Shown here: in pieces, positions 842-54,034 of the stretch
Layout of the letters: each line of letters opens with the position of its first letter
How positions within the stretch are numbered: position 1 is the stretch's first letter
Assembly: GCF_900114615.1 (NCBI RefSeq)
Contig: NZ_FOTS01000007.1
Location: forward strand, 1 to 64,000
Direction: 5' to 3'
Origin: Pelosinus propionicus DSM 13327
GTDB taxonomy: Bacteria > Bacillota > Negativicutes > DSM-13327
Length of the DNA: 64,000 bases
Notes under the pieces: generated by a model
Told to the model about the DNA's origin: nothing
Database searches by the model: none
The model's input: only the letters and a program-made list of their open reading frames with translations
Program-made: the position numbers and the translations under genes

Positions 842-2578
842 GTGTTGCCATTTTTAATAATAGCATTCTTAGTAATTAATTTTTTATATTTCTTTATGGA
901 AATGCCCGTATTAGCATTTGGTTTTACGGATTGGTCGAATGTGGTTATAGCCTGGGGAATATTATTTTTGTTTATTTCAGCGTTGATTTTGTTGAATAAA
1001 TTTAGACTATTTATTGCTAAAACGGCTTGGGGGGAAGTATTAAAAAATTTATTTCCGCAGTTATTTCAGGAACGTCCACATGTTGTTGATATTGCTAACT
1101 ATCAGAATCAAGGACAAAATTATAAGCGATATAGAATGCTTGGCTTTGTAGGGATTGTATTATTAGTCGTTGGTGTGAGTAATTTGCTGATTCTACCGAT
1201 ATTAACAAGCGCTCCAATGCTATATAGCAGTTCTTACAGAGGTTTGTTAGGGGAGGTAAAGGAAAGTTCGTTTACTTCTGATATTGAGCCGATAAACTTA
1301 TCACAAATCCGAATTGTAGATGAGGAAACAGCTCGCAAGCTGGCTGAGAAAATCATTGGTGAAGTGCCTGCTTTAGGTAGTGAAGTGCAAATTGGAGAAT
1401 TATCGCTGCAAAAGGTACGAGAAAAATTATATTATGTCGCACCCTTAGAACATCGCGGTATCTTTCAATGGTTGACGAATTATACTAAGGGAAGTAAAGG
1501 ATTTGTGATGGTATCTGCGACAAATCCTCAAGATGTACACTTAGTGCAGTCAGTTAATGGCAAAGAGATATATTTAAAGTATCAAATGAAGGGGTTTCTA
1601 TTTGATTATTTACCTAGATATGTATATTTCAATGGATTTTTTAATATTGGTATTTCAGATTTTTCCTTTGAAATAGATGATGATCTTAATCCATATTGGG
1701 TTGTAACATTATATAAAAATAAAGTAGGGTATCACGGTTCTGATGCAGTCGGTGCAGTGATTGTAAATGCTCAGACAGGTGAAATTAGCCGTCATACTAT
1801 TGATGATCTGCCTCGCTGGATTGACAGAGTTCAGCCTGAGTCCTATGTATATAAGCAAGTTAAGGATTGGGGCGATTACATAAATGGTTTTTGGAATAGC
1901 GTATTCGCCAAAATGGGAACATTGAAGCCAACGGGAAATGAACTTCATCTCATTTATGGCAATGATGATAGTGTATATTGGTACACAGGGATTACATCAT
2001 CGGGAAAAGATGGAAGTTCTGTAGGCTTCATTTTAATTAACTCGCGCACGAAAGAAGCAAAATGGTATAAGGTGTCTGGGGCTGATGAGGGCGGAGCTAA
2101 AAAATCTGCAGAAGGTCAGGTACAGGAGAAATCCTATCGTGCCGGATATCCTATTTTATATAATATTGGTGGTGTGCCAACTTATATTGCTCCATTAAAA
2201 GATAAAGAAGGATTATTAAAAGCTGTATCTTTTATCTCAGTAGAAAATTACAACTTGGTTGGAGTTGGAGCCGACATTGAAAGCGGTTTGCGTGCTTACC
2301 AGCAAGTGTTGGCTAGCAAGGGAAATCAATTTGTTCCGAGTCAGGAAAATAAAGCCTTGAAATTGCAAGGTAAAATCAGCCGTGTTTCTCAAGTCGTCAA
2401 AGGTGGGGAATCCTATTTTTACTTTATGATTGAGGGAGATAATCGTATTTTTGTAGGGAGTTCGAATACGTCACCGAAAATTCCTTTAGTCAAGGTTGGA
2501 GATATTATATCCGTAACAGCCAATGATACGAAAGAAAGTACATTAAGCATTACTGATTTTAAAGGAGAGAGCTATTAA
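842..2578 (+). CDS. Large membrane protein of unknown function
   Basis: I do not recognise a named family. The 578-residue protein starts at GTG 842, chosen because AAGGAG (827-832) lies nine bases upstream; an overlapping ATG at 840 is out of frame. Three hydrophobic segments are visible near residues 1-30, 33-52 and 98-122. A long soluble region of about 450 residues follows, rich in aromatic beta-strand-like stretches and including many Gly-Tyr and Trp-Tyr pairs. This suggests an N-terminal membrane anchor with a large extracytoplasmic or cytoplasmic domain. A strong terminator follows, so it is probably transcribed alone. Function is unknown. Confidence 0.8.
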   Translation: MLPFLIIAFLVINFLYFFMEMPVLAFGFTDWSNVVIAWGILFLFISALILLNKFRLFIAKTAWGEVLKNLFPQLFQERPHVVDIANYQNQGQNYKRYRMLGFVGIVLLVVGVSNLLILPILTSAPMLYSSSYRGLLGEVKESSFTSDIEPINLSQIRIVDEETARKLAEKIIGEVPALGSEVQIGELSLQKVREKLYYVAPLEHRGIFQWLTNYTKGSKGFVMVSATNPQDVHLVQSVNGKEIYLKYQMKGFLFDYLPRYVYFNGFFNIGISDFSFEIDDDLNPYWVVTLYKNKVGYHGSDAVGAVIVNAQTGEISRHTIDDLPRWIDRVQPESYVYKQVKDWGDYINGFWNSVFAKMGTLKPTGNELHLIYGNDDSVYWYTGITSSGKDGSSVGFILINSRTKEAKWYKVSGADEGGAKKSAEGQVQEKSYRAGYPILYNIGGVPTYIAPLKDKEGLLKAVSFISVENYNLVGVGADIESGLRAYQQVLASKGNQFVPSQENKALKLQGKISRVSQVVKGGESYFYFMIEGDNRIFVGSSNTSPKIPLVKVGDIISVTANDTKESTLSITDFKGESY

Positions 2579-2581
2579 ATA

Positions 2582-2627
2582 AACAAGTCATCCTGCTACA
2601 AAAAGTAGAAGGATGACTTGTCTTTTA
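2582..2627 (+). terminator. Rho-independent terminator
   Basis: Perfect 11-bp arms ACAAGTCATCC (2582-2592) and GGATGACTTGT (2610-2620), with an inner GCTAC/GTAG stem, followed by CTTTTAT. It closes the preceding membrane-protein gene. Confidence 0.85.
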
Positions 2628-2706
2628 TATGGTAGATAAATTATAGTAGTATTAAAGAGAGATACTATAAAAGAATAAATCAGTATCTTTTATAGGAGGT
2701 TTTACT

Positions 2707-3093
2707 ATGAATTTTGATTTTGAGAAGTACTCGACAAAATATACAGATAAAAAACTATTTGAGAAACTAAAAAAATTTTCCCTGAAGGCTGGCAAAAAAT
2801 TAGTATATGTTGTTTTACTTTTATATTATACGTTACAAAAAGATAATGTTCCGAAAAAGGTGAAGGCGGTTATTATTGGAGCACTAGGGTATTTTATTTC
2901 TCCTTTTGATGTGATCACTGATTTTTTACCTATTATAGGATATACTGATGATTTTGGTGCGTTAATGATGGCGTTAGCAGTAGTTGCAATTTATATTGAT
3001 AAAGAGACGAAATCCCGAGCAAAATCCCGATTGGAGTCTTGGTTTGGTGAGGTAGATGAAAGTGAATTGGAAGAGGTTAATTCTAAATTATGA
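2707..3093 (+). CDS. DUF1232 (YkvA-like) membrane protein
   Basis: A 128-residue protein with the DUF1232 signature: a basic N-terminal part, then PKKVKAVIIGALGYFISPFDVITDFLP-type sequence near residues 50-78 (the conserved Y-x2-SPxDxIPD-like core) and a second hydrophobic helix ending near 98. The C-terminal tail is charged. The molecular role of the family is not established. It overlaps the next gene by four bases (ATGA), so translation is coupled with the first DUF445 protein. The ribosome site AGGAGG at about 2695 supports the start. Confidence 0.88.
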   Translation: MNFDFEKYSTKYTDKKLFEKLKKFSLKAGKKLVYVVLLLYYTLQKDNVPKKVKAVIIGALGYFISPFDVITDFLPIIGYTDDFGALMMALAVVAIYIDKETKSRAKSRLESWFGEVDESELEEVNSKL

Positions 3094-4331
3094 GCGCTAA
3101 TAAATATAAGGCAACTTGTATCTTGGGGATTGTCTCTTGCGGATTTTTAGTAAGCTATCCTTTTTCTCAGACTTTCTTTGGAGGGCTTTTAGCAAGAGGC
3201 TTTGGAGCTGCAATGATAGGAGGTCTAGCGGATTGGTTTGCTGTGTCTGCCTTATACCGTCGCCCCTTAGGCATACCTTTCCGTACCGCGATAATTTCTC
3301 GAAATCGGGAAAGAATCTTTCAGGCTTTAATTGATATGGTAGAGAATGAAATATTAATAAAAGAGAATATAAAGAAGAACTTAGATCAATATGATTTAAC
3401 GGAAACGTTGTTATATTTTATAAATGAGAGTAGCAGTAAGCAAGATGTGAAAAAAATGCTCTATCGCTTTTGGCAGGACTTTGCTTATCAAGTGAATCCG
3501 GAGGATTTAGAAGTATTAATTCAAGATTTTGTAGAAAATAATATAGAAAATATTAAAATCCTTCCTTATGCGATTCCTGTAGCTCAATGGTTTATGGAGC
3601 ACGAATATGATGATCAAATACTCGATTTTATCATTGAACAATGCATCCTTGCTGCGCAAAATGAAAAGTTTGTTCATTTACTGACAAACGTTTTTTCTGC
3701 TGTAACTAAAAAATATGAGCATGGCATGAATAGGCGAAAATTATTTAACTTGCTGATGGATTTATCCCCTAAACAATTGGCCAAGGCAGCTCAGCATGGA
3801 TTGGTCAGTATATTATTTGAAATGAAATCTCCCCAGCATCCTTTTAGGTTAGACGGGAAGGAAAAATTACATCAGTTTATTGACAGAATGCGAAATGATG
3901 CTGATTTTGGGGAACGGATCGAGTCATGGCTCCAGCTCAATATAATTTATAAATTTAAACTAGGAGAAAAAATCGCAGGGTCTATGGTGGCTGTATTTCA
4001 TAAAGTGATTCGTGATAATAGACTGGCAGTTAGAGGGATGGATTCTCTCATGGCACAGTTTGAGATTATGCTGGCGGATTTCTCTAAAAATAAGGAAGAT
4101 CGGGTAAAAACTGATTTGTATCTTAAAAGTGCTTTAGGGGAATGGCTAGATCGCAATCACGATGAAATTGGAAGAATTGTAAAAGAGAGCCTGAATGACT
4201 TCACCAATGAGAAATTAATAAATTTCATTGATAGCAAGATGGGTAATGATTTGCAAATGATCCGTATTAATGGTTCATTCGTTGGCGGTTTGGTAGGAAT
4301 GGCACTATATATATTGACCTATTGGTTATAA
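3090..4331 (+). CDS. DUF445 family membrane protein
   Basis: A 413-residue DUF445 protein. It has an N-terminal hydrophobic segment and the family hallmark GLADWFAVSALYRRPLGIPF near residues 45-65, then a long helical body predicted to be soluble. It ends with GNDLQMIRINGSFVGGLVGMALYIL, the typical C-terminal membrane segment. DUF445 proteins are widespread in bacteria and lack a firmly assigned function. The start overlaps the DUF1232 gene and the stop codon abuts the next DUF445 gene, making a three-gene operon. The paralogue next to it probably arose by tandem duplication (inference). Confidence 0.9.
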   Translation: MSANKYKATCILGIVSCGFLVSYPFSQTFFGGLLARGFGAAMIGGLADWFAVSALYRRPLGIPFRTAIISRNRERIFQALIDMVENEILIKENIKKNLDQYDLTETLLYFINESSSKQDVKKMLYRFWQDFAYQVNPEDLEVLIQDFVENNIENIKILPYAIPVAQWFMEHEYDDQILDFIIEQCILAAQNEKFVHLLTNVFSAVTKKYEHGMNRRKLFNLLMDLSPKQLAKAAQHGLVSILFEMKSPQHPFRLDGKEKLHQFIDRMRNDADFGERIESWLQLNIIYKFKLGEKIAGSMVAVFHKVIRDNRLAVRGMDSLMAQFEIMLADFSKNKEDRVKTDLYLKSALGEWLDRNHDEIGRIVKESLNDFTNEKLINFIDSKMGNDLQMIRINGSFVGGLVGMALYILTYWL

Positions 4332-6781: not shown

Positions 6782-7663
6782 ATGCAGCAAGGAACTTTTC
6801 GTGTAAAGACTGGGCTGGCAGAGATGCTTAAAGGTGGAGTGATTATGGATGTGACTACGCCTGAACAGGCCAAAATTGCTGAGGAAGCCGGAGCTTGTGC
6901 TGTAATGGCATTAGAACGTGTTCCAGCAGATATTCGCGCCGCAGGCGGAGTTGCCCGAATGGCTGATCCTACGATTGTCTTGAAGATCATGGAGGCTGTT
7001 ACTATTCCGGTTATGGCTAAAGGACGAATTGGACATTTTGTAGAAGCGCAGATCATAGAGTCGTTAGGAGTTGATTATATTGATGAAAGTGAAGTGCTAA
7101 CCCCTGCCGATGATAAATATCATATTGATAAGCATCAGTTTACAGTTCCCTTTGTATGTGGTGCTAAGAATCTTGGTGAAGCACTCCGCCGTATTGGTGA
7201 AGGGGCAGCAATGATTCGTACCAAAGGAGAACCAGGAACGGGTAATGTAGTCGAAGCAGTAAAGCATATTCGTATGGTTATGAGTGAAATTCGCCAGTTG
7301 CAGAACCTGCCGAATGAAGAAGTATCTGCCTTTGCCAAAAATATTGCAGCTCCGTTAGAACTTGTTATGGAAGTAAAAAAACTAGGACGCCTGCCAGTTG
7401 TTAATTTTGCCGCAGGAGGAATTGCGACACCTGCTGATGCAGCTCTGATGATGCAACTAGGCTGCGATGGCATTTTTGTTGGTTCAGGAGTCTTTAAGTC
7501 AGGTGATCCTGTAAAAAGAGCAAAGGCAATTGTAACAGCTACTACCTATTACAATGATCCTAAGATCTTGGCTGAAATTTCCTGCAATCTTGGAGAGGCT
7601 ATGGTGGGGATTGAGATTTCTGCAATAGCAGATCATGAGCGAATGCAGGATCGTGGCTGGTAA
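6782..7663 (+). CDS. pdxS: Pyridoxal 5'-phosphate synthase, PdxS lyase subunit
   Basis: Synthesises PLP from ribose 5-phosphate, glyceraldehyde 3-phosphate and ammonia supplied by PdxT; the cytosolic enzyme is a dodecamer with twelve PdxT subunits. The 293 residues show the expected (beta/alpha)8 sequence with Asp23, Lys80 (VMAKGRIGH) and Lys148 ([11 protein letters not shown]), matching the catalytic Asp24, Lys81 and Lys149 of the Bacillus enzyme with a one-residue offset. AGGAGG lies just upstream of ATG 6782. pdxT follows after 21 bases in the same operon. Confidence 0.98.
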
Positions 7664-7684
7664 GCAAGATAGAAGGCAGGGGTT

Positions 7685-8260
7685 ATGATGAAGATCGGAG
7701 TATTAGCATTGCAAGGCGCTTTTAGAGAACACTGCTGGATGCTGGAAGGCTGTGGAGTAACAGCAGTAGAGATTCGCAGGTCAGAGGAATTAGACAAGGT
7801 TAATGGTTTAATCATACCTGGGGGAGAAAGTACCGCCATTGGCAAGTTAATGGTACAGTGGGGATTGATGGATACGATTAAATCCAAAGTGAAGCAAGGT
7901 ATGGCGGTATTTGGAACTTGCGCAGGTATGATTTTGCTGGCAGAGAACATTATAGAAAGCGATCAGCCTCGCTTAGGACTTATGGATATTGTTGTTGTTC
8001 GTAATGCTTTTGGCCGTCAACGTGAGAGCTTTGAAAGGGATATAACAGTGTCTGAACTTGGAGCAGAATCTTTAAAAGCTATTTTTATTCGTGCACCTTA
8101 TATAGAAAGGGCAGGACGGAATGTAGAAATTATGGCAAGGGTAGAAGAGAAAATTGTTTTTGCTAGGCAAAATAATATCTTGGTCACTGCATTTCATCCT
8201 GAATTGACTATTGATAAGCGAGTCCACAAATACTTTATTGAAATGAGTAGAAAAGCTTGA
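7685..8260 (+). CDS. pdxT: Pyridoxal 5'-phosphate synthase, PdxT glutaminase subunit
   Basis: Glutamine amidotransferase that hydrolyses glutamine and channels ammonia to PdxS. The 191-residue protein has the class I glutaminase triad: Cys79 in FGTCAGM, and His171 and Glu173 in FHPEL. It also has the PGGEST loop (46-50) typical of PdxT. A second ATG follows the first directly, so the start may be 7685 or 7688. It ends against a strong terminator that closes the pdxST operon. Confidence 0.97.
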   Translation: MMKIGVLALQGAFREHCWMLEGCGVTAVEIRRSEELDKVNGLIIPGGESTAIGKLMVQWGLMDTIKSKVKQGMAVFGTCAGMILLAENIIESDQPRLGLMDIVVVRNAFGRQRESFERDITVSELGAESLKAIFIRAPYIERAGRNVEIMARVEEKIVFARQNNILVTAFHPELTIDKRVHKYFIEMSRKA

Positions 8261-8312: not shown

Positions 8313-8418
8313 AACCATTCTAAAAATAAATATAAATTCAATCAATTTCAGAAGGGAATAGCAAAACATTACAGAATAATACAAGATAGAAATTTATATT
8401 GAAAAATTAGGAAGAATT

Positions 8419-8447
8419 TTGACATAATTAGTAAAACTATCGAATTT
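8419..8447 (+). promoter_or_regulatory. Possible sigma-70 promoter of the HMA2/P-type ATPase operon
   Basis: TTGACA (8419-8424) is a perfect -35 box; a weak -10-like GAATTT lies 17 bases on (8442-8447). Transcription would start near 8454, which supports the later start codon of the first gene. Confidence 0.4.
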
Positions 8448-8486
8448 ATAAGGATGAACAAGTACTACTATAGGATGGTGGCTATT

Positions 8487-8984
8487 ATGGACATAGGCAA
8501 TTCAAAGCCCAGTTTGGGATTAGTTATTTCTTTAGCAGGGAGCTTGCTGACACTGCCTTTAAATAAAAAATATCATATTGCTTTTGGTATTCTGCTTACT
8601 GCTTGGTCGGGGATACATTCTTGGCAGCATCGCAAAAGCTTAAGGAAGAATATATCCAAGGAGGTGAACAATGTGAGAGGGTTATTTACTGGTTGCGCTA
8701 ATTTTTTAAACCAGAAAACGGCTGTCTCATTTTTATCTCAGAATGTTGAAGTACTGCATTATGTACCAGGCAGGGTACGGCTTTATTCAAATCAGCTAAT
8801 CAACAATCCTGACAATGTGCAGCAGGTGGAAAGTTATTTGAATTCTATTTCTGAAATTCAGACATTTTCCATTAATCCAGGGACGGGTTCTGTTCTGATT
8901 CAGTATTCGCCGAATGATGTGGAAGGAAATCCATTGCTGACAGAAGTTGAAAAATTGGTGGTTAGGCAGTACAGGAGGAGATAA
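8487..8984 (+). CDS. HMA2-like domain membrane protein, first gene of P-type ATPase operon
   Basis: A 165-residue protein. Residues 8-45 hold two hydrophobic stretches (LGLVISLAGSLLTLPL and IAFGILLTAWSGIHSW). Residues about 88-150 form an HMA2-type domain recognised by VEVLHYVPGRVRLYS and the closing strand INPGTGSVLIQYSP. It lacks the CxxC metal site of classical HMA domains. AGGATGG (8472-8478) favours ATG 8487; the ATG at 8454 has no spaced ribosome site. It is the first of five closely packed genes ending in a small membrane protein, so it is probably an accessory subunit or regulator of the ATPase (inference). Confidence 0.75.
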   Translation: MDIGNSKPSLGLVISLAGSLLTLPLNKKYHIAFGILLTAWSGIHSWQHRKSLRKNISKEVNNVRGLFTGCANFLNQKTAVSFLSQNVEVLHYVPGRVRLYSNQLINNPDNVQQVESYLNSISEIQTFSINPGTGSVLIQYSPNDVEGNPLLTEVEKLVVRQYRRR

Positions 8985-8988
8985 GAGG

Positions 8989-9516
8989 ATGAGTTATTTA
9001 ACCGGATTGGCTCTAGGAATTTCTGCAGGAAAGCAAGTCGGAAAATTATATCGCAGTAAGGGGTTCCAGTTGGTGCACAAAAGTCGCGGGCGGCGTCGTT
9101 ATTATCATGAAGAATTGGTTCATAATGCTGAATTCGCTGAAAAACTGGAGCAGCAGCTAGCAGGTGCTTCTATTTTGCATTGTTTTGCCATTAATCAGGT
9201 AACAGGAACTCTATTACTAGAATATACATGCCAAGATGAGCAAATGGATAGGATTATCAGCTACTTAGATGATATCGCACAGCGTCCTAGCCCTACTAGC
9301 TCTTATGGAAAAATCGGCAGTGATATTCGTCGTGGTTTTAGTAGTATGAATAAAAAAATTAAGAAAAATACAGGTTTAACTTTTGATCTGCGTACACTAG
9401 TATCTTTATGGCTAATGGCTTGGGGTGTCAACAAAATGTGGACGTTAGGGCAGCGTCCTTCTGGGCCGCAAATGCTTTGGTGGTCCTATTCACTACTGAA
9501 AGGACGAGACTCATGA
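8989..9516 (+). CDS. HMA2-like accessory protein of P-type ATPase
   Basis: A 175-residue protein. It starts MSYLTGLALGISAGKQVGKLY, a glycine-zipper-like helix, then a basic RGRRRYYHEE stretch and an HMA2-like fold near residues 25-85 with the strand INQVTGTLLLEYT, again without CxxC. A second hydrophobic segment lies near 130-150 (TLVSLWLMAWGVNKMWTLG). ATG 8989 is chosen because AGGAGG is eight bases upstream; the frame opens earlier but overlaps the previous gene. The stop overlaps the ATPase start (ATGA), implying coupled translation. Confidence 0.72.
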   Translation: MSYLTGLALGISAGKQVGKLYRSKGFQLVHKSRGRRRYYHEELVHNAEFAEKLEQQLAGASILHCFAINQVTGTLLLEYTCQDEQMDRIISYLDDIAQRPSPTSSYGKIGSDIRRGFSSMNKKIKKNTGLTFDLRTLVSLWLMAWGVNKMWTLGQRPSGPQMLWWSYSLLKGRDS

Positions 9517-11630
9517 CGTATCAATATAGTATATTTTCTGTTCCAGCTGGGATGAGTGTACAACAAAAAGCAATGCTGGAGATACAGGTTCGGAAGCTGT
9601 CAGGAGTCGTTAGTGCTTATGTTGATGATAAGGGGGGCATGACAGTACGATCTTGTGGTGTTCCTTCCAAAAAGAGTATTGGACGCTTGATTCAAGACGC
9701 CACATTTTATTCAAAAAAGATGGTGAATGCTGCAGGCTTGAGAAAAAAAGAAAAGCATTCTGAGGTAAATGAATACAGGCGTGATGCGATTACTGCAGGA
9801 CTGGGGTTAGTTGGTCTTCAGTTACTGCGCATGTATTCTCCTATGGCTTTTAATGGCATATATATTGCTAGAAGTGCCTTTACCTTATTTGTCGCTCGGA
9901 ATTTTATCAGCAATGGTATTAAAGGACTAATAAAAGATCGGCAGCCAAATGCGGATACACTTACTGCTACCGCGGTTCTGGCATCGGTTATATCTGGCAA
10001 ACCGGAGTCAAGTTTAACTTTGTTGATGCTGGCCAATGCAGCAGAAATGCTGACAACTTATACTGCAGAGAAAGCTCGCAATCATATTTCAGATATGCTG
10101 CGTTTGGATCAGCCTCATGCTTGGAAGATCGAAGAGGATGGACACGAAAGAAGAGTATCTGTTGAGAGTTTAAAACCCGGAGATCACATTGGAGTACACT
10201 TGGGTGAAAAGATCTGTGTTGATGGCAGGGTAAAAGATGGTGTAGCAGCGGTTGATCAATCATCCATTACCGGTGAATACATTCCTGTAGAAAAATCCAG
10301 AGGGGCTTATGTATATGCGGGAACAGTAGTCAAAAATGGGTTTTTAGAAATTATCGTAGAAAAAGTGGGAGATGCCACGGCTCTTGCTCGTATTGTCCAT
10401 ATGGTGGAAGAAGCGCAGTCCAGACGTGCACCCGTGCAGAATTTTGCTGATCAAATGGCAACTAAGCTAGTTCCTATTTCCTTTATAGCAGCTGGCTTAG
10501 TATATGGATTGACTAAGGATTGGCAGCGGGTACTGAATATATTATTTATTGATTATTCCTGCGGCTTAAAATTATCTACTGCCACTGCGATTTCAGCGGC
10601 GATTGGACATGCTGCTAAACGAGGAGTGTTGATTAAGGGCGGGAATTATGTAGAATCATTAGGCAGCATTGATACTATCGTTTTGGATAAAACAGGCACC
10701 ATTACTGTTGGTACTCCTAAAGTAATGTTAGTAGAACCAGCTCCAGGAATACAGGAGAAAGAGCTAGTATTATTAGCAGCTGCTGCGGAATATCATTCTG
10801 CACATCCTTTAGCCTCAGCCATATTAGACTACGTAGGAGAGCAAGGATGGGAGGTTCCGCCTCATCTTACGACAGAGACGATTGTAGCCAAGGGGATTCA
10901 GGCAAATGTGCCTGATTATGAGAAAATCATTGGTGGTGAAATTCTAGTTGGCAGCATTCCTTTTATGCGTGAGAATCATGTAGAATGTCAATCGGCAGTT
11001 GAGCGAGGAGAGACTTATTCTGATTGTGGCTATAACGTGGTATATGTAGCTCGTGATGGCATTTTGTTAGGGATGCTGGTTATTAATGATCCTATCAGAC
11101 CCAATATGAAAAGGACAATTAATCGTTTACGGCGCATTGGCATTGACGAGATTGTAATGCTTACAGGTGACAGTAAGAATGTAGCACAGCATGTAGCTGC
11201 AACATTGGATATTGATTCCTATCATGCCGAAGTGCTGCCTGCGGATAAAGCTCTATTAGTATCAAAATTGCAAAGAGGTTCCCAAGTCATGATGATTGGT
11301 GATGGTATTAATGATGCTCCGGCGTTAGCTTTTGCTGATGTAGGTGTAGCTATGGGCGGGCGGCGTACGGATATTGCAGTTGAATCAGCGGCAATGACGA
11401 TTAATTCAGATGAACCTTTAATTATTCCCGAAATGATTGATTTAGGTCGGAATACAATGAAAATTGTGCAGCAAAATTTTACTACGACAATTGCTGTCAA
11501 TACAGCAGCAATGCTGCTGGGAGCTATCGGAAGAACGAGTCCTATGGTTTCGGCTCTTATCCATAATGCTGCAACAATTGGAGTGGTGTTAAATAGCGCA
11601 CGCATTTTACTAATGGAGAAGAAAAAATGA
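9513..11630 (+). CDS. P1B-like P-type ATPase with non-canonical transport motif
   Basis: A 705-residue ATP-driven cation pump of the inner membrane; the ion is unknown. Order: a degenerate HMA2-like N-terminal domain (1-70, no CxxC); membrane helices near 90-190; the actuator loop with TGEYIPVEK; the catalytic loop with phosphorylated Asp392 in DKTGTIT; SAHPLA; TGDSKN and GDGINDAPALA; and closing membrane helices including SALIHNAATIGVVLNS. The helix before the catalytic loop reads YSCGLKLSTATA (Ser349-Cys350-Gly351) where metal pumps normally carry CPC, CPH or SPC. The frame opens at 9408, but AAAGGA eight bases before ATG 9513 and the ATGA overlap fix the start. It somewhat resembles the mycobacterial CtpC type (from memory). 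Confidence 0.88.
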   Translation: MTYQYSIFSVPAGMSVQQKAMLEIQVRKLSGVVSAYVDDKGGMTVRSCGVPSKKSIGRLIQDATFYSKKMVNAAGLRKKEKHSEVNEYRRDAITAGLGLVGLQLLRMYSPMAFNGIYIARSAFTLFVARNFISNGIKGLIKDRQPNADTLTATAVLASVISGKPESSLTLLMLANAAEMLTTYTAEKARNHISDMLRLDQPHAWKIEEDGHERRVSVESLKPGDHIGVHLGEKICVDGRVKDGVAAVDQSSITGEYIPVEKSRGAYVYAGTVVKNGFLEIIVEKVGDATALARIVHMVEEAQSRRAPVQNFADQMATKLVPISFIAAGLVYGLTKDWQRVLNILFIDYSCGLKLSTATAISAAIGHAAKRGVLIKGGNYVESLGSIDTIVLDKTGTITVGTPKVMLVEPAPGIQEKELVLLAAAAEYHSAHPLASAILDYVGEQGWEVPPHLTTETIVAKGIQANVPDYEKIIGGEILVGSIPFMRENHVECQSAVERGETYSDCGYNVVYVARDGILLGMLVINDPIRPNMKRTINRLRRIGIDEIVMLTGDSKNVAQHVAATLDIDSYHAEVLPADKALLVSKLQRGSQVMMIGDGINDAPALAFADVGVAMGGRRTDIAVESAAMTINSDEPLIIPEMIDLGRNTMKIVQQNFTTTIAVNTAAMLLGAIGRTSPMVSALIHNAATIGVVLNSARILLMEKKK

Positions 11631-12241
11631 GAAGCAGAGCATATGAGGTTGTTCATGTACTTCCAGGAAGAGTGAGAATTGTAATAGCATCTTCGTTGTC
11701 AGCTGGATTTGCTAGTCATTTATCGCGATTAGAAGCAAGCCGCGCCATTCATAAAGTAATTTGGAATCCAATTACTCGCTCGGTCGTTGTTGAATATGCG
11801 GCTGCCAACCTAGAGTTATCAGAAGTAGTACTCGTATTTGATCAAATCTTTGCTGAAATGGGATACAAAGTTGGCGGACAAAACTGCAGCAATGATTTGT
11901 TCTGGTCGCTTTTGGCTGGAGGGGCGATTGCTTTGGCTTTTGCTTTGCGAAGAGTTACACCCAATAGCGGAGCGGCCAGTATGCTGGAAACAGCTGCCTT
12001 TGGCATTACAGCATATTCTGTAGTAACTCACTGCGGTGGACAAAATAGCTCTTCTAAAGCCCTGCATTTAGATAGTATTGCAGGGTTGGTAAGTGTGTTA
12101 AATCTTGGTTCCAATCGAGCATTTGCAGGTCTATTCATGACTTGGTTGTTTAATTTTATGGAAATTATCGGTTGGACTCCTTTGAAAAACCGTCAAGGAA
12201 GTGGAACATCATCTTTTCGCTGTGGCTTAACGAATTATTAA
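11627..12241 (+). CDS. HMA2-like protein downstream of P-type ATPase
   Basis: A 204-residue protein overlapping the ATPase stop by four bases. Residues 1-65 form an HMA2-type domain: YEVVHVLPGRVRIVIAS has the same V-PGRVR core as the first gene of the operon, and the closing strand is WNPITRSVVVEYA. The remainder has three or four short hydrophobic segments (LLAGGAIALAFAL, AAFGITAYSVVTH, AGLFMTWLFNFM), so it is probably membrane-embedded. No CxxC is present. Three proteins with the same domain flanking one pump suggests a multi-subunit complex (inference). Confidence 0.72.
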   Translation: MRSRAYEVVHVLPGRVRIVIASSLSAGFASHLSRLEASRAIHKVIWNPITRSVVVEYAAANLELSEVVLVFDQIFAEMGYKVGGQNCSNDLFWSLLAGGAIALAFALRRVTPNSGAASMLETAAFGITAYSVVTHCGGQNSSSKALHLDSIAGLVSVLNLGSNRAFAGLFMTWLFNFMEIIGWTPLKNRQGSGTSSFRCGLTNY

Positions 12242-12271
12242 AAGGAAATATTGAAAGGAGGTGAATGATAA

Positions 12272-12487
12272 ATGTTTGCTAGAACTGATTTTTGGATTGG
12301 CTTAGCAGTTGGTGTAGTGGCAGGCGCATTTGGTTATAAATTAATGGAAGAGCATTCCCAAAAATGTATTTCAACATTGCAGCCTCCAGTAGCTCAAGGA
12401 GTGGCCGAGGTTCCTGTGGATGAGTTAATGAGACAAAAAGAGCGTTTGGAAGATTTGATTGCTGAGCGACAAAGCATTGGTGCATAA
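12272..12487 (+). CDS. Small single-span membrane protein closing the P-type ATPase operon
   Basis: A 71-residue protein with a very strong ribosome site (AAAGGAGGTGA). A glycine-rich helix, WIGLAVGVVAGAFGYKL (residues 8-24), is followed by a soluble tail that is charged and helical at the end (DELMRQKERLEDLIAERQ). The layout of one glycine-zipper helix and a hydrophilic tail beside a P1B pump recalls the DUF1490/PacL partners of mycobacterial CtpC, but the Asp/His-rich metal-binding tail of PacL1 is absent, so homology is not claimed. Confidence 0.7.
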   Translation: MFARTDFWIGLAVGVVAGAFGYKLMEEHSQKCISTLQPPVAQGVAEVPVDELMRQKERLEDLIAERQSIGA

Positions 12488-12499
12488 CAGTTATTATGA

Positions 12500-12535
12500 G
12501 AGGGCTGTCTCAAATGAAAATTTGAGACAGCCCTC
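12500..12535 (+). terminator. 16-bp stem with GAAA tetraloop
   Basis: GAGGGCTGTCTCAAAT (12500-12515) pairs perfectly with ATTTGAGACAGCCCTC (12520-12535) over a GAAA loop. There is no proper T-run after it, so it may be a weak terminator or a 3'-end stabiliser for the ATPase operon. Confidence 0.6.
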
Positions 12536-51081: not shown

Positions 51082-53655
51082 TTAGTTTATTTTTCGCATT
51101 AAACGCATTCCATTTAATGTTACTAGAATAGATGAACCTGTATCTGCGAAAACTGCTAGCCACAAATTTGCTATACCGGTGAAAGTTAAAATAACAAAAA
51201 TGACTTTCACTATGATTGAAAAACTGATATTCTGCTTAATGATGGATAGTGTCTTATTACTGAGTTTGATTACATAGGCTAGTTTTCCAAGATCATCAGA
51301 CATCAGCGCAATATCGGCTGTTTCCAGAGCCGTATCTGAGCCCGCCACCCCCATGGCAACGCCAATTGTAGAGGCAGCCATTGCAGGAGCATCATTGACT
51401 CCATCGCCCACCATAGCAACATTTTGATAGTTAGTTAATAACTCATTTATAGTTGCAACCTTATCTTGAGGCAATAGCTCGCTATAGAGTGTATCAATGT
51501 TTAGTTCTTTTGCGATCGAGCCAGCTACTTGTCGATTATCGCCTGTCAACATGGCAATATGTTTTATGCCTGCTTCCCGAAGCTGTACAAGGGCATCCTT
51601 ACTATTTTCCCGTAGAGTATCAGCCACTGCGATCATACCATGGAGGTTATCTTGGGTTCCAAGCAGCATAAGAGTTTTGCCTTGCTGCTGCAAATCGGTG
51701 ATTTGTTTTTGATATGGAGATAAATCCAATCCCAAATCTTCAAACAAGCGTGGATTGCCGATAAATATAGTTTGGCTGTTTATATCGGCCTGTGCCCCTA
51801 GTCCTACCAAGGCTTTAAAATTGGTTACTGATCGTAATGTTAACCCTGCCGATTTTTCTACAATTGCAACAGCCAATGGATGTTCAGACCATTTTTCAAT
51901 AGAGGCTGCAGTGGTTAAAACATCTTCTTGACTGCTGTTTATAGAAATAATATCTGTAACTCGGGGATGGCCATGAGTTAAGGTACCCGTTTTATCAAAG
52001 GCGATGGCCCGTATGGTGCCCATTTGCTCTAGGTAGGCGCCACCTTTAATAAGAACACCATTTCTCGAAGAGTTACCAATAGCTGAAACGATAGACACAG
52101 GTGTGGAAATAACCAGAGCGCAAGGGCAAGATATAACAAGAAGAACCAAACCTTTGTAGAACCACGGAGAGAATGGCTGATTGAAGAGCAGCCAAGGTAC
52201 GACCATGATTCCAGCAGCAATTGCTAATACTGCTGGTGTATAGTATTTTGCGAACAGATCAACAAACTGTTGGGAGGGAGCCTTCTGTGACTGTGCTTCT
52301 TCAACCAAATGCATAATCTTGGCAAGAGTAGAGTCGGTAGCAATTTTAGTAACTTCAATTTCTAATGCACCATGTTCGTTGACGGTGCCCGCATATACCC
52401 CGTCCCCGATTGTTTTTTCTACCGGTAAGGATTCTCCTGTAATTGTCGCTTGGTTCACAGCAGATGTTCCGTTTTTAACAATACCATCCATAGCAATACG
52501 TTCACCAGGCTTTACGATAATGTGATCGCCAATCACTATTTCTTCTACAGGTAACTTTTGTTCCAGTCCATTACGCACAACTAAAGCTTCCGCTGGAGCT
52601 AATTCCATAAGAGCTCGGATCGATTGTCTTGTTTTATCCATTGTATAGGTTTGGAGCGTGTTGCCAAAGGAAAACAAAAAAGCAACTGTTGCCCCTTCTC
52701 CCCACTCTCCTATGGCAAAAGCTCCAATAACAGCTACTGTCATCAGAAAATTCATATCAAAAGTAAGGGATCGCATGCTGTAAAAGCCACTTTTCGCGGT
52801 GCTGTATCCGCCGATAATGGCAGCTAGAACATATAAGGGAACAATGAAGATATCACCAATAGCCAGCCAATCAAGGATCATGCTGATTGCTAGTATAATT
52901 CCGGAACCTATTGTAGCTTGGGTTTTAGGATTGTTCCACCATTCCTCCTGGATTTTGGCATGTTGTATCGATTGGGTATTCATTTCTGCTTTGTAACCTA
53001 CTTGTGAGACTGCCTGTATAATAGCAGAATCGGTAGTTGCATGCTCTACCGTTAATTTTGCGGCAGCAAAGTTTACATTTGCTGAGTGCACTCCAGTAAG
53101 AGTGGAGAGATGTTTTTCCAGCTTATTAGCGCAATCACCGCAATCAAGTCCAGAGACGGTAAAGACAGACTTATGAAATTGGGACTGTTGATTAATAGCG
53201 TTTATTAGACTGGCTTTATATCCAAAACTGCTAACGATTTTTGCAATTTCCGCAGCTTGAATTATAGTATGATTATGCGTCACTTTCATCTTTGCAGTAG
53301 CAAAGTTGACCTTCACGTCCAGAATACCTTCTTGCTTTCTGAGACCTTTTTCCAATTTAATAGCGCAGTCTCCACAGTCGAGTCCGGTAATGGTAAAGTT
53401 ATTTACGCTAATATCACTTTTAGCAGTAGCTGGAGCAGCTGGGTGTGAACAGCAATCGCAATGCTCTTCAATAGCATCGGCTTCTTCATCTAGGTGTCCC
53501 GTATGATTCCTATCAGCATCAGTGGGAGAATCCTCTGGCGAGCAGCAGCTGCAGGATGGTATTTCCGGCTGTGTCAATGCTGCACTGGATTCAGAGCAGC
53601 AGCTATCGTTACAGGAATGTTTTGTCTCCCCTATGAATTGAGTTTTATTTGCCAT
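51082..53655 (-). CDS. cadA: Cd/Zn/Pb-exporting P1B-type ATPase
   Basis: An 857-residue inner-membrane pump that expels Cd2+, Zn2+ or Pb2+. The N-terminus (about 1-80) is Cys- and His-rich. Two HMA domains follow, each with GLDCGDC (metal-binding CxxC; near residues 93 and 167). Eight membrane helices carry the transport motif VISCPCALVISTP, and the cytosolic loops carry TGESLPVEK, DKTGTLTHG with the phosphorylated Asp, SEHPLA, TGDNRQ and GDGVNDAPAMA. ATG 53655 is preceded by TAGGAGTGAG; the frame to 53724 runs into the repressor gene. It is co-transcribed with the ArsR repressor 10 bases upstream. Confidence 0.96.
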   Translation of the reverse strand: MANKTQFIGETKHSCNDSCCSESSAALTQPEIPSCSCCSPEDSPTDADRNHTGHLDEEADAIEEHCDCCSHPAAPATAKSDISVNNFTITGLDCGDCAIKLEKGLRKQEGILDVKVNFATAKMKVTHNHTIIQAAEIAKIVSSFGYKASLINAINQQSQFHKSVFTVSGLDCGDCANKLEKHLSTLTGVHSANVNFAAAKLTVEHATTDSAIIQAVSQVGYKAEMNTQSIQHAKIQEEWWNNPKTQATIGSGIILAISMILDWLAIGDIFIVPLYVLAAIIGGYSTAKSGFYSMRSLTFDMNFLMTVAVIGAFAIGEWGEGATVAFLFSFGNTLQTYTMDKTRQSIRALMELAPAEALVVRNGLEQKLPVEEIVIGDHIIVKPGERIAMDGIVKNGTSAVNQATITGESLPVEKTIGDGVYAGTVNEHGALEIEVTKIATDSTLAKIMHLVEEAQSQKAPSQQFVDLFAKYYTPAVLAIAAGIMVVPWLLFNQPFSPWFYKGLVLLVISCPCALVISTPVSIVSAIGNSSRNGVLIKGGAYLEQMGTIRAIAFDKTGTLTHGHPRVTDIISINSSQEDVLTTAASIEKWSEHPLAVAIVEKSAGLTLRSVTNFKALVGLGAQADINSQTIFIGNPRLFEDLGLDLSPYQKQITDLQQQGKTLMLLGTQDNLHGMIAVADTLRENSKDALVQLREAGIKHIAMLTGDNRQVAGSIAKELNIDTLYSELLPQDKVATINELLTNYQNVAMVGDGVNDAPAMAASTIGVAMGVAGSDTALETADIALMSDDLGKLAYVIKLSNKTLSIIKQNISFSIIVKVIFVILTFTGIANLWLAVFADTGSSILVTLNGMRLMRKIN

Positions 53656-53665
53656 GGTCTCACTC

Positions 53666-54034
53666 CTATCGATGTTTAATATGGTCGATACCCTGAGAGA
53701 GTAATGAACGGACGTGTTCGTCATCTAAGGAATACCAAGCCATTTTTCCCTCACGGCGGTACCTAACAAGTCGAGCGTTTCGTAAAAGCCGCAGCTGATG
53801 AGAAACGGCAGACTGGCCCATTTCGATCACTGCTGCAATATCACATACACACAGCTCCCGTTTGCTTAAAACTTGTAGTATTTTCACTCTGGTGGTATCA
53901 CCAAGTAATTTAAAGATTTCAGCGACTTGCTGTGCTTCATTGTCAGAAATCGATTCTTTTTTAGCTAGACAAATAGTCTGTGGATGCTCACAGAGCTGCT
54001 CACAAATATCGTCAGGACATTCTTTTGTTTGCAA
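53666..54034 (-). CDS. cadC: ArsR/CadC-type metal-sensing repressor
   Basis: A 122-residue winged-helix repressor of the SmtB/ArsR group. The N-terminal cysteines (ECPDDICEQLCEHP) and ELCVCDIAAVIEMGQSAVSHQLRLLR (metal-site Cys-x-Cys in the recognition region) match the CadC sensor for Cd, Pb or Zn. The frame opens at ATG 54052, which would lie inside the operator and lacks a ribosome site. TTG 54034 is preceded by AGGGAGTG at good spacing, so it is preferred. Start uncertainty is the main caveat. Confidence 0.93.
   Translation of the reverse strand: MQTKECPDDICEQLCEHPQTICLAKKESISDNEAQQVAEIFKLLGDTTRVKILQVLSKRELCVCDIAAVIEMGQSAVSHQLRLLRNARLVRYRREGKMAWYSLDDEHVRSLLSQGIDHIKHR

Follow-up and report, generated by a model that had tools for sequence, protein, structure and literature searches.

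A conserved five-gene unit of HMA_2 proteins and a P1B-type ATPase in Pelosinus propionicus, a probable iron-handling relative of the ferrosome clusters

Ferrosome (fez) operons and their P1B-6 ATPase, FezB, were reportedly described by Grant et al. in 2022 and Pi et al. in 2023, and the original ferrosome paper is said to have found FezB in diverse bacteria and archaea. Together with the PacL effluxosomes, the ferrosomes are the closest named precedents of the unit considered here. In C. difficile, fezAB corresponds to CD630_05910-05920 (PMC11651100), and FezA and FezB are required for ferrosomes and are Fur-repressed (PMC12574912); the fez set of R. palustris comprises six genes, RPA2333-2338 (PMC12016538). 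As for the effluxosomes, PacL proteins cluster P1B pumps via a GxxG motif in their transmembrane (TM) segment (PMC13043812). P1B6 pumps carry a highly conserved HN in TM6, and DUF6110 proteins are typically encoded with them (Boudehen et al., PMC9374683).

The window, i.e., the whole stretch of 64,000 nucleotides of P. propionicus DSM 13327 that was analysed, contains on its plus strand, between 8487 and 12487, five genes that were all read directly from the sequence (Table 1). An earlier note on this DNA had described five plus-strand genes with two ATGA junctions, and they are present as described, the overlaps lying at 9513 (genes 2 and 3) and 11627 (genes 3 and 4). Gene 1, for which an alternative start is possible at 8454, has two hydrophobic helices at its N-terminus and the HMA_2 domain at its C-terminus. 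Gene 2 begins with a glycine-rich helix, continues with an HMA-like domain, and ends with helices bearing an LWW motif. The hairpin after gene 5 is missing from the terminator-scan matches because it has no T-run, and sigma-70-like matches occur at chance level (18 found versus 13.3 expected in shuffles). Directly upstream are the genes for PdxS (SOR_SNZ) and a PdxT-like protein (6782-8260, plus strand), which are unrelated to the pump unit. Elsewhere in the window (51082-53724, minus strand) a P1B pump of the CPC type is encoded, 880 aa long and Cys-rich at its N-terminus; it is an ordinary candidate for a Zn/Cd/Pb exporter.

Table 1. Components of the five-gene unit and its flanking signals (window coordinates)
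Feature	Position	Strand	Basis and remarks
Gene 1, HMA_2 protein	8487..8984	+	165 aa; PF19991 E 1.6e-14; syntenic orthologues
Gene 2, full-length HMA_2 protein	8989..9516	+	175 aa; PF19991 E 2.9e-24
Gene 3, P1B-type ATPase (pump)	9513..11630	+	705 aa; TIGR01525 532.6 bits; motifs; trees
Gene 4, HMA_2 domain with membrane helices	11627..12241	+	204 aa; PF19991 E 3.8e-5; profile match to gene 2
Gene 5, single glycine-rich TM helix, then conserved KERLEDLIAE helix	12272..12487	+	71 aa; family alignment
Perfect 15-bp hairpin, probable 3' boundary of the unit	12501..12534	+	direct sequence reading
Sigma-70-like promoter match upstream of gene 1	8399..8428	+	chance level

The pump belongs to the heavy-metal P1B ATPases and, among their classes, it falls on the P1B-6/FezB side of the tree. 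Its motifs are FIDYSCGLKLS in TM4, ALIHN (SALIHN) in TM6, and DKTGT. CPC is absent from its TM4 and is replaced by a sequence of the D[FY]SC type, which reads FIDYSCGLKLS in the window versus VDFSCALKLS in a Clostridioides-like pump. The pump has the TM4 pattern D[YF]SCGLKLS, and the broader pattern D[YF][SA]C[AG]xK[LI]S is common to the window clade and the FezB-like pumps, with HN in TM6 of all the sampled members of both. Two maximum-likelihood trees place the window clade (34 rows, SH-aLRT 99) beside the FezB-like pumps (99-100), as their sister group and not within them, where "FezB-like" denotes pumps fetched for this work, a set from which the proven FezB of D. magneticus, R. palustris, and S. 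putrefaciens are absent. The two clades join at a support of 98-99, and the CPC pumps, including the CtpC types that adjoin DUF1490, are placed outside this group. Among the P1B pumps of the closest relatives, a wide gap separates the orthologues from all the rest (lowest orthologue 792 bits, next 407). The degenerate HMA2 fold that the earlier note had seen in the pump is a divided matter: the sister pumps carry a clear HMA_2 domain, whereas the window pump gives a borderline match (hhalign probability 54, E 1.3e-4).

What, then, are the proteins that accompany the pump? An HMA2 fold had been proposed for three of them, and the profile searches agree: genes 1 and 2 score above the curated cut-off of PF19991, and gene 4, which is below it, is confirmed by a family profile-profile comparison of its N-terminal domain with gene 2 (probability 98.3, E 1.4e-14). 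The AlphaFold2 model of gene 2 (pLDDT 85) displays an HMA-like domain followed by helices, that of gene 4 (pLDDT 77) an HMA-like fold, and HMA folds are among the best PDB matches of gene 2, with Z of only 7-8. These fold searches are supportive of an HMA-like fold and not decisive about identity.

The same proteins had been said to be devoid of CxxC, and across relatives the motif is indeed absent or nearly so, with 0/75 occurrences for gene 1, 1/83 for gene 2, and 2/52 for gene 4; the N-terminus of the pump has it in 0/107. The Arg pair of PGRxR, by comparison, is invariant across the HMA_2 family (R35/R37 in gene 2, R15/R17 in gene 4), and it occupies the position that CxxC has in HMA domains. 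A docking role would suit these proteins better than thiol metal binding, and for genes 1, 2, and 4 a function as assembly or adaptor proteins appears at least as likely as that of regulators. The literature searched on PF19991 or HMA2 together with P-type ATPases contained no relevant paper. If this reading is true, the uncharacterised HMA_2 domain would gain a role as an adaptor that assembles P-type pumps, and not as a thiol metal carrier.

Gene 5 is the glycine-zipper small membrane protein already recognised at the end of the unit, and its TM segment, GLAVGVVAGAFGYK, is glycine-rich. The C-terminal end reads ...LEDLIAERQSIGA and has no metal-binding motif of the DLHDHDH type. In the family alignment, one glycine-rich TM helix is followed by an invariant K-E-x-x-E-D-x-x-A helix. 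No Pfam family is matched by gene 5, and its homologues likewise match neither DUF6110 (PF19605) nor DUF1490 (PF07371). Its identification as DUF6110, a family that was not found in the same genome, is ruled out by the missing Pfam match and by hhalign (probability 3.4, E 0.013); PacL (DUF1490) is ruled out in the same manner (hhalign probability 0.2). A profile match does connect gene 5 with the small protein encoded in the FezB-like operons of Proteobacteria (probability 91, E 9.2e-7). Since PacL clusters pumps through the GxxG of its TM segment, a clustering role may reasonably be supposed for gene 5. In architecture it appears FezA-like, and which of the small proteins equals FezA is something that we infer.

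The unit is widespread. When 84,980 named species genomes were searched with the TM4 region of the pump, 80 loci came up, which belong to Bacillota, Pseudomonadota, Bacteroidota, Fusobacteriota, and Thermodesulfobacteriota. Two or more HMA_2 genes precede the pump in 95 of the 105 pump loci, the small protein is present in 98, and 90 have both, so that the multi-component pump envisaged in the earlier note is borne out as a conserved system, a P1B ATPase with HMA_2 partners devoid of CxxC; the co-occurrence is far above chance, and the partners are confirmed as HMA_2 proteins. Homologues of genes 1, 2, and 5 also adjoin the orthologous pump in the loci fetched from the closest relatives. The downstream HMA_2 gene, gene 4, is less constant (58/105 loci): Pelosinus, Bacilli, Clostridia, Fusobacteria, and Bacteroidales retain it, and the other Negativicutes and the Gammaproteobacteria mostly lack it. 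Separate gene orders are seen, namely small-HMA2-HMA2-pump and HMA2-HMA2-pump-(HMA2)-small. Because the linkage is conserved across phyla, the unit is, on the evidence of gene neighbourhoods, an ancient functional module and not a genus-specific one.

A counterpart is found on plasmid pBM400 of Priestia megaterium, one of some Bacilli copies that are plasmid-borne. The order there is identical to that of the window (HMA2, HMA2, ATPase, HMA2, and a 74-aa protein, the last annotated as hypothetical), yet the two pumps share 44% identity and TM4 reads VIDFICGIKLS in the pBM400 pump. In the tree, the gammaproteobacterial pump copies of the Succinivibrionaceae nest among those of Negativicutes, which suggests gene transfer. 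A Pseudomonadota search with a pump of this clade returned only the Succinivibrio genome on which that search was centred; the same kind of search with a FezB-like query found eight genomes. In Succinivibrionaceae, at loci such as L136 and L147, gene 5 is followed by another small TM protein rich in glycine.

How do known fez clusters compare? Two genomes of 4.1-4.3 Mb, from the same family as Peptostreptococcus, have a DUF6110 gene followed by a pump gene whose product carries VDFSCALKLS and LHNAST. In the Clostridioides-like genome this pair lies at 713.9 kb, and from family and position it would be the C. difficile fezAB. The same DUF6110-pump pair is present on a Deinococcus plasmid. The FezB-like pumps of Vibrio, Arcobacter, and several other Proteobacteria belong instead to operons that also encode HMA_2 proteins and small membrane proteins rich in glycine, the small protein having KER(L/M)ED, and in gene number these operons resemble the six-gene fez set of R. 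palustris. The window unit shares with fez the motifs of the pump and its sister position in the tree, the HMA_2 partners and the KERLED small membrane protein of the proteobacterial operons, and, in its relatives, an iron-linked neighbourhood and Fur boxes. It differs in that its pump is in a separate clade and not in the confirmed FezB set, and in having three HMA_2 proteins versus one or two. It also has no DUF6110 and no FezC-like cytochrome, and nothing in the five genes resembles FezC (DUF4405). On sequence grounds, the kinship with fez is well supported. The earlier note had gone further and regarded the unit as its best candidate for an undescribed system; that it stands alone is not supported, since the pump is on the P1B-6/FezB side and the proteobacterial FezB-like operons share its HMA_2 partners and a related small protein.

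Another question is which metal is moved. If any upstream site with at most two mismatches to the consensus TGATAATNATTATCA is counted as Fur-box-like, 14 of 92 clusters are preceded by one, against 7 of the 328 other upstream regions at the same loci (Fisher 7e-6), and none of the permuted palindromes used as a control reaches 14 clusters. Clostridium acetireducens and Desulforamulus have perfect sites, and one Pelosinus relative has a site with two mismatches; the upstream region of the window itself has no recognisable Fur box (best 4 mismatches, p 0.54). A feoB gene is found within 3 kb of the pump at 14 of 105 loci, which represent several genera, and feoAB adjoin a proteobacterial FezB-like pump (L223); no feoB is near the window copy. 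The association with Fur boxes and feoB in relatives moderately supports iron as the substrate. In Halobacillus, genes for a metal ABC importer that reads as Zn/Mn-type (binding protein, ATPase, and permease; L157, 9552-12157) come after the unit, so that the substrate may differ between branches and, in particular, in Bacilli. A short DUF2325-like gene recurs near pump clusters at L040, L041, L043, and L210; it is annotated so only in Arcobacter L210, and at the other three loci it is accompanied by feoB.

Is the metal stored or expelled? For the reading in which the unit is an HMA_2-rich variant of the fez (ferrosome-type) cluster that moves Fe(II) into iron stores, we consider the chances about even. 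Expression induced by the metal is expected of a detoxifying exporter; the fez genes of C. difficile are Fur-repressed, and iron storage is therefore the leading reading and PacL-like efflux its main rival. The rival, possible though rather doubtful in our estimate, is a plasma-membrane platform analogous to the PacL-CtpC effluxosome, in which the pump would expel excess Fe(II), Zn, or Mn while gene 5 and the HMA_2 proteins cluster and stabilise it. Mycobacterial PacL-CtpC (DUF1490 with a P1B6-like pump) also couples a small one-TM glycine-rich partner to an HN-type P1B pump. The glycine-rich helix of gene 5 is like the GxxG TM of PacL, CtpC shares the HN of TM6 and its type forms the next branch out, and some Bacilli copies are on plasmids or beside a metal importer. 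However, the window unit differs by its HMA_2 partners, its CPC-less pump, and a gene 5 devoid of both a DUF1490/DUF6110 match and a C-terminal metal-binding motif; moreover, repression by iron, to which the Fur-box-like sites of relatives point, would be unusual in an exporter that detoxifies it. The parallel with PacL partners drawn in the earlier note holds for architecture, and hhalign and Pfam give no match beyond it.

Should the substrate instead be Mn, Zn, or another ligand, moved by an obligate P-type ATPase complex with the HMA_2 proteins as regulatory subunits, the genes would be expected to stay together, as they do at 90 of 105 loci (five phyla are represented by the named ones), and the invariant Arg pair in the place of CxxC would also be in keeping with it. 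We find such a non-iron pump unlikely, because the Fur-box and feoB association in relatives indicates iron and the nearest relatives are FezB-like, FezB being an iron-storage pump. As for the idea that unrelated metal genes happen to lie close together in a single genus, the distribution is patchy, the pump orthologue being absent from three of the seven same-genus genomes searched, but the linkage extends over five named phyla and two separate gene orders; this explanation is hardly credible, and the co-occurrence census of the 105 loci rules out chance adjacency.

Taken as a whole, the unit is probably a machine for iron storage or iron export, in a form that has no database name so far, because the set is kept in many unrelated bacteria and the pump is the sister of the ferrosome pump. 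In the ferrosome-type reading, gene 3 as a P1B-6/FezB-like ATPase would remove Fe(II) from the cytosol, and in the anaerobic Pelosinus its destination would most likely be ferrosomes, iron stores bounded by a membrane. Gene 5, as a FezA-like glycine-zipper protein, would form clusters in the membrane, recruiting or organising the pump, and genes 1, 2, and 4, as membrane-anchored HMA_2 proteins, would serve as modules for assembly or adaptation that dock on the pump or on one another, and not as thiol metallochaperones. The direction of transport, the docking or complex formation, and the formation of ferrosomes are steps that we infer. A bolder version, improbable in our judgement, makes the Arg-pair HMA_2 proteins obligate structural subunits that bind no metal, in a P1B complex that builds a metal-storing compartment of its own, distinct from known ferrosomes.

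If the ferrosome-type reading is right, fez-like clusters reach Negativicutes, Fusobacteria, Peptostreptococcus, Bacteroidales, Succinivibrionaceae, and Bacilli, among them numerous anaerobes of gut and sediment. Current family names miss this form, its partners being annotated as "HMA2 domain-containing" or hypothetical.

The same genome offers a further pump for comparison, on contig C121 (locus L036, 6020-8275): it has an N-terminal HMA_2 domain, which the window pump has in borderline form, and shares with that pump the HN in TM6, but it carries CPC in TM4, belongs to a separate clade, and has other partners. This intact pump adjoins a 573-aa P-type-ATPase-like protein (2422-4143, minus strand) with an HMA_2 N-terminus and no DKTGT, possibly a catalytically dead pump subunit. 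The C121 cluster also includes a 126-aa one-TM protein (1931-2311, plus strand) with a weak match to DUF1490 (E 0.0098), which might be a PacL relative outside Actinobacteria. Finally, giant P-type-ATPase-like proteins of about 1530 aa, divergent from the CPC HMA_2 pumps, are encoded at L064 (148-4767) and L065 (978-5564), and relatives have counterparts in frames of about 1670-1740 aa.
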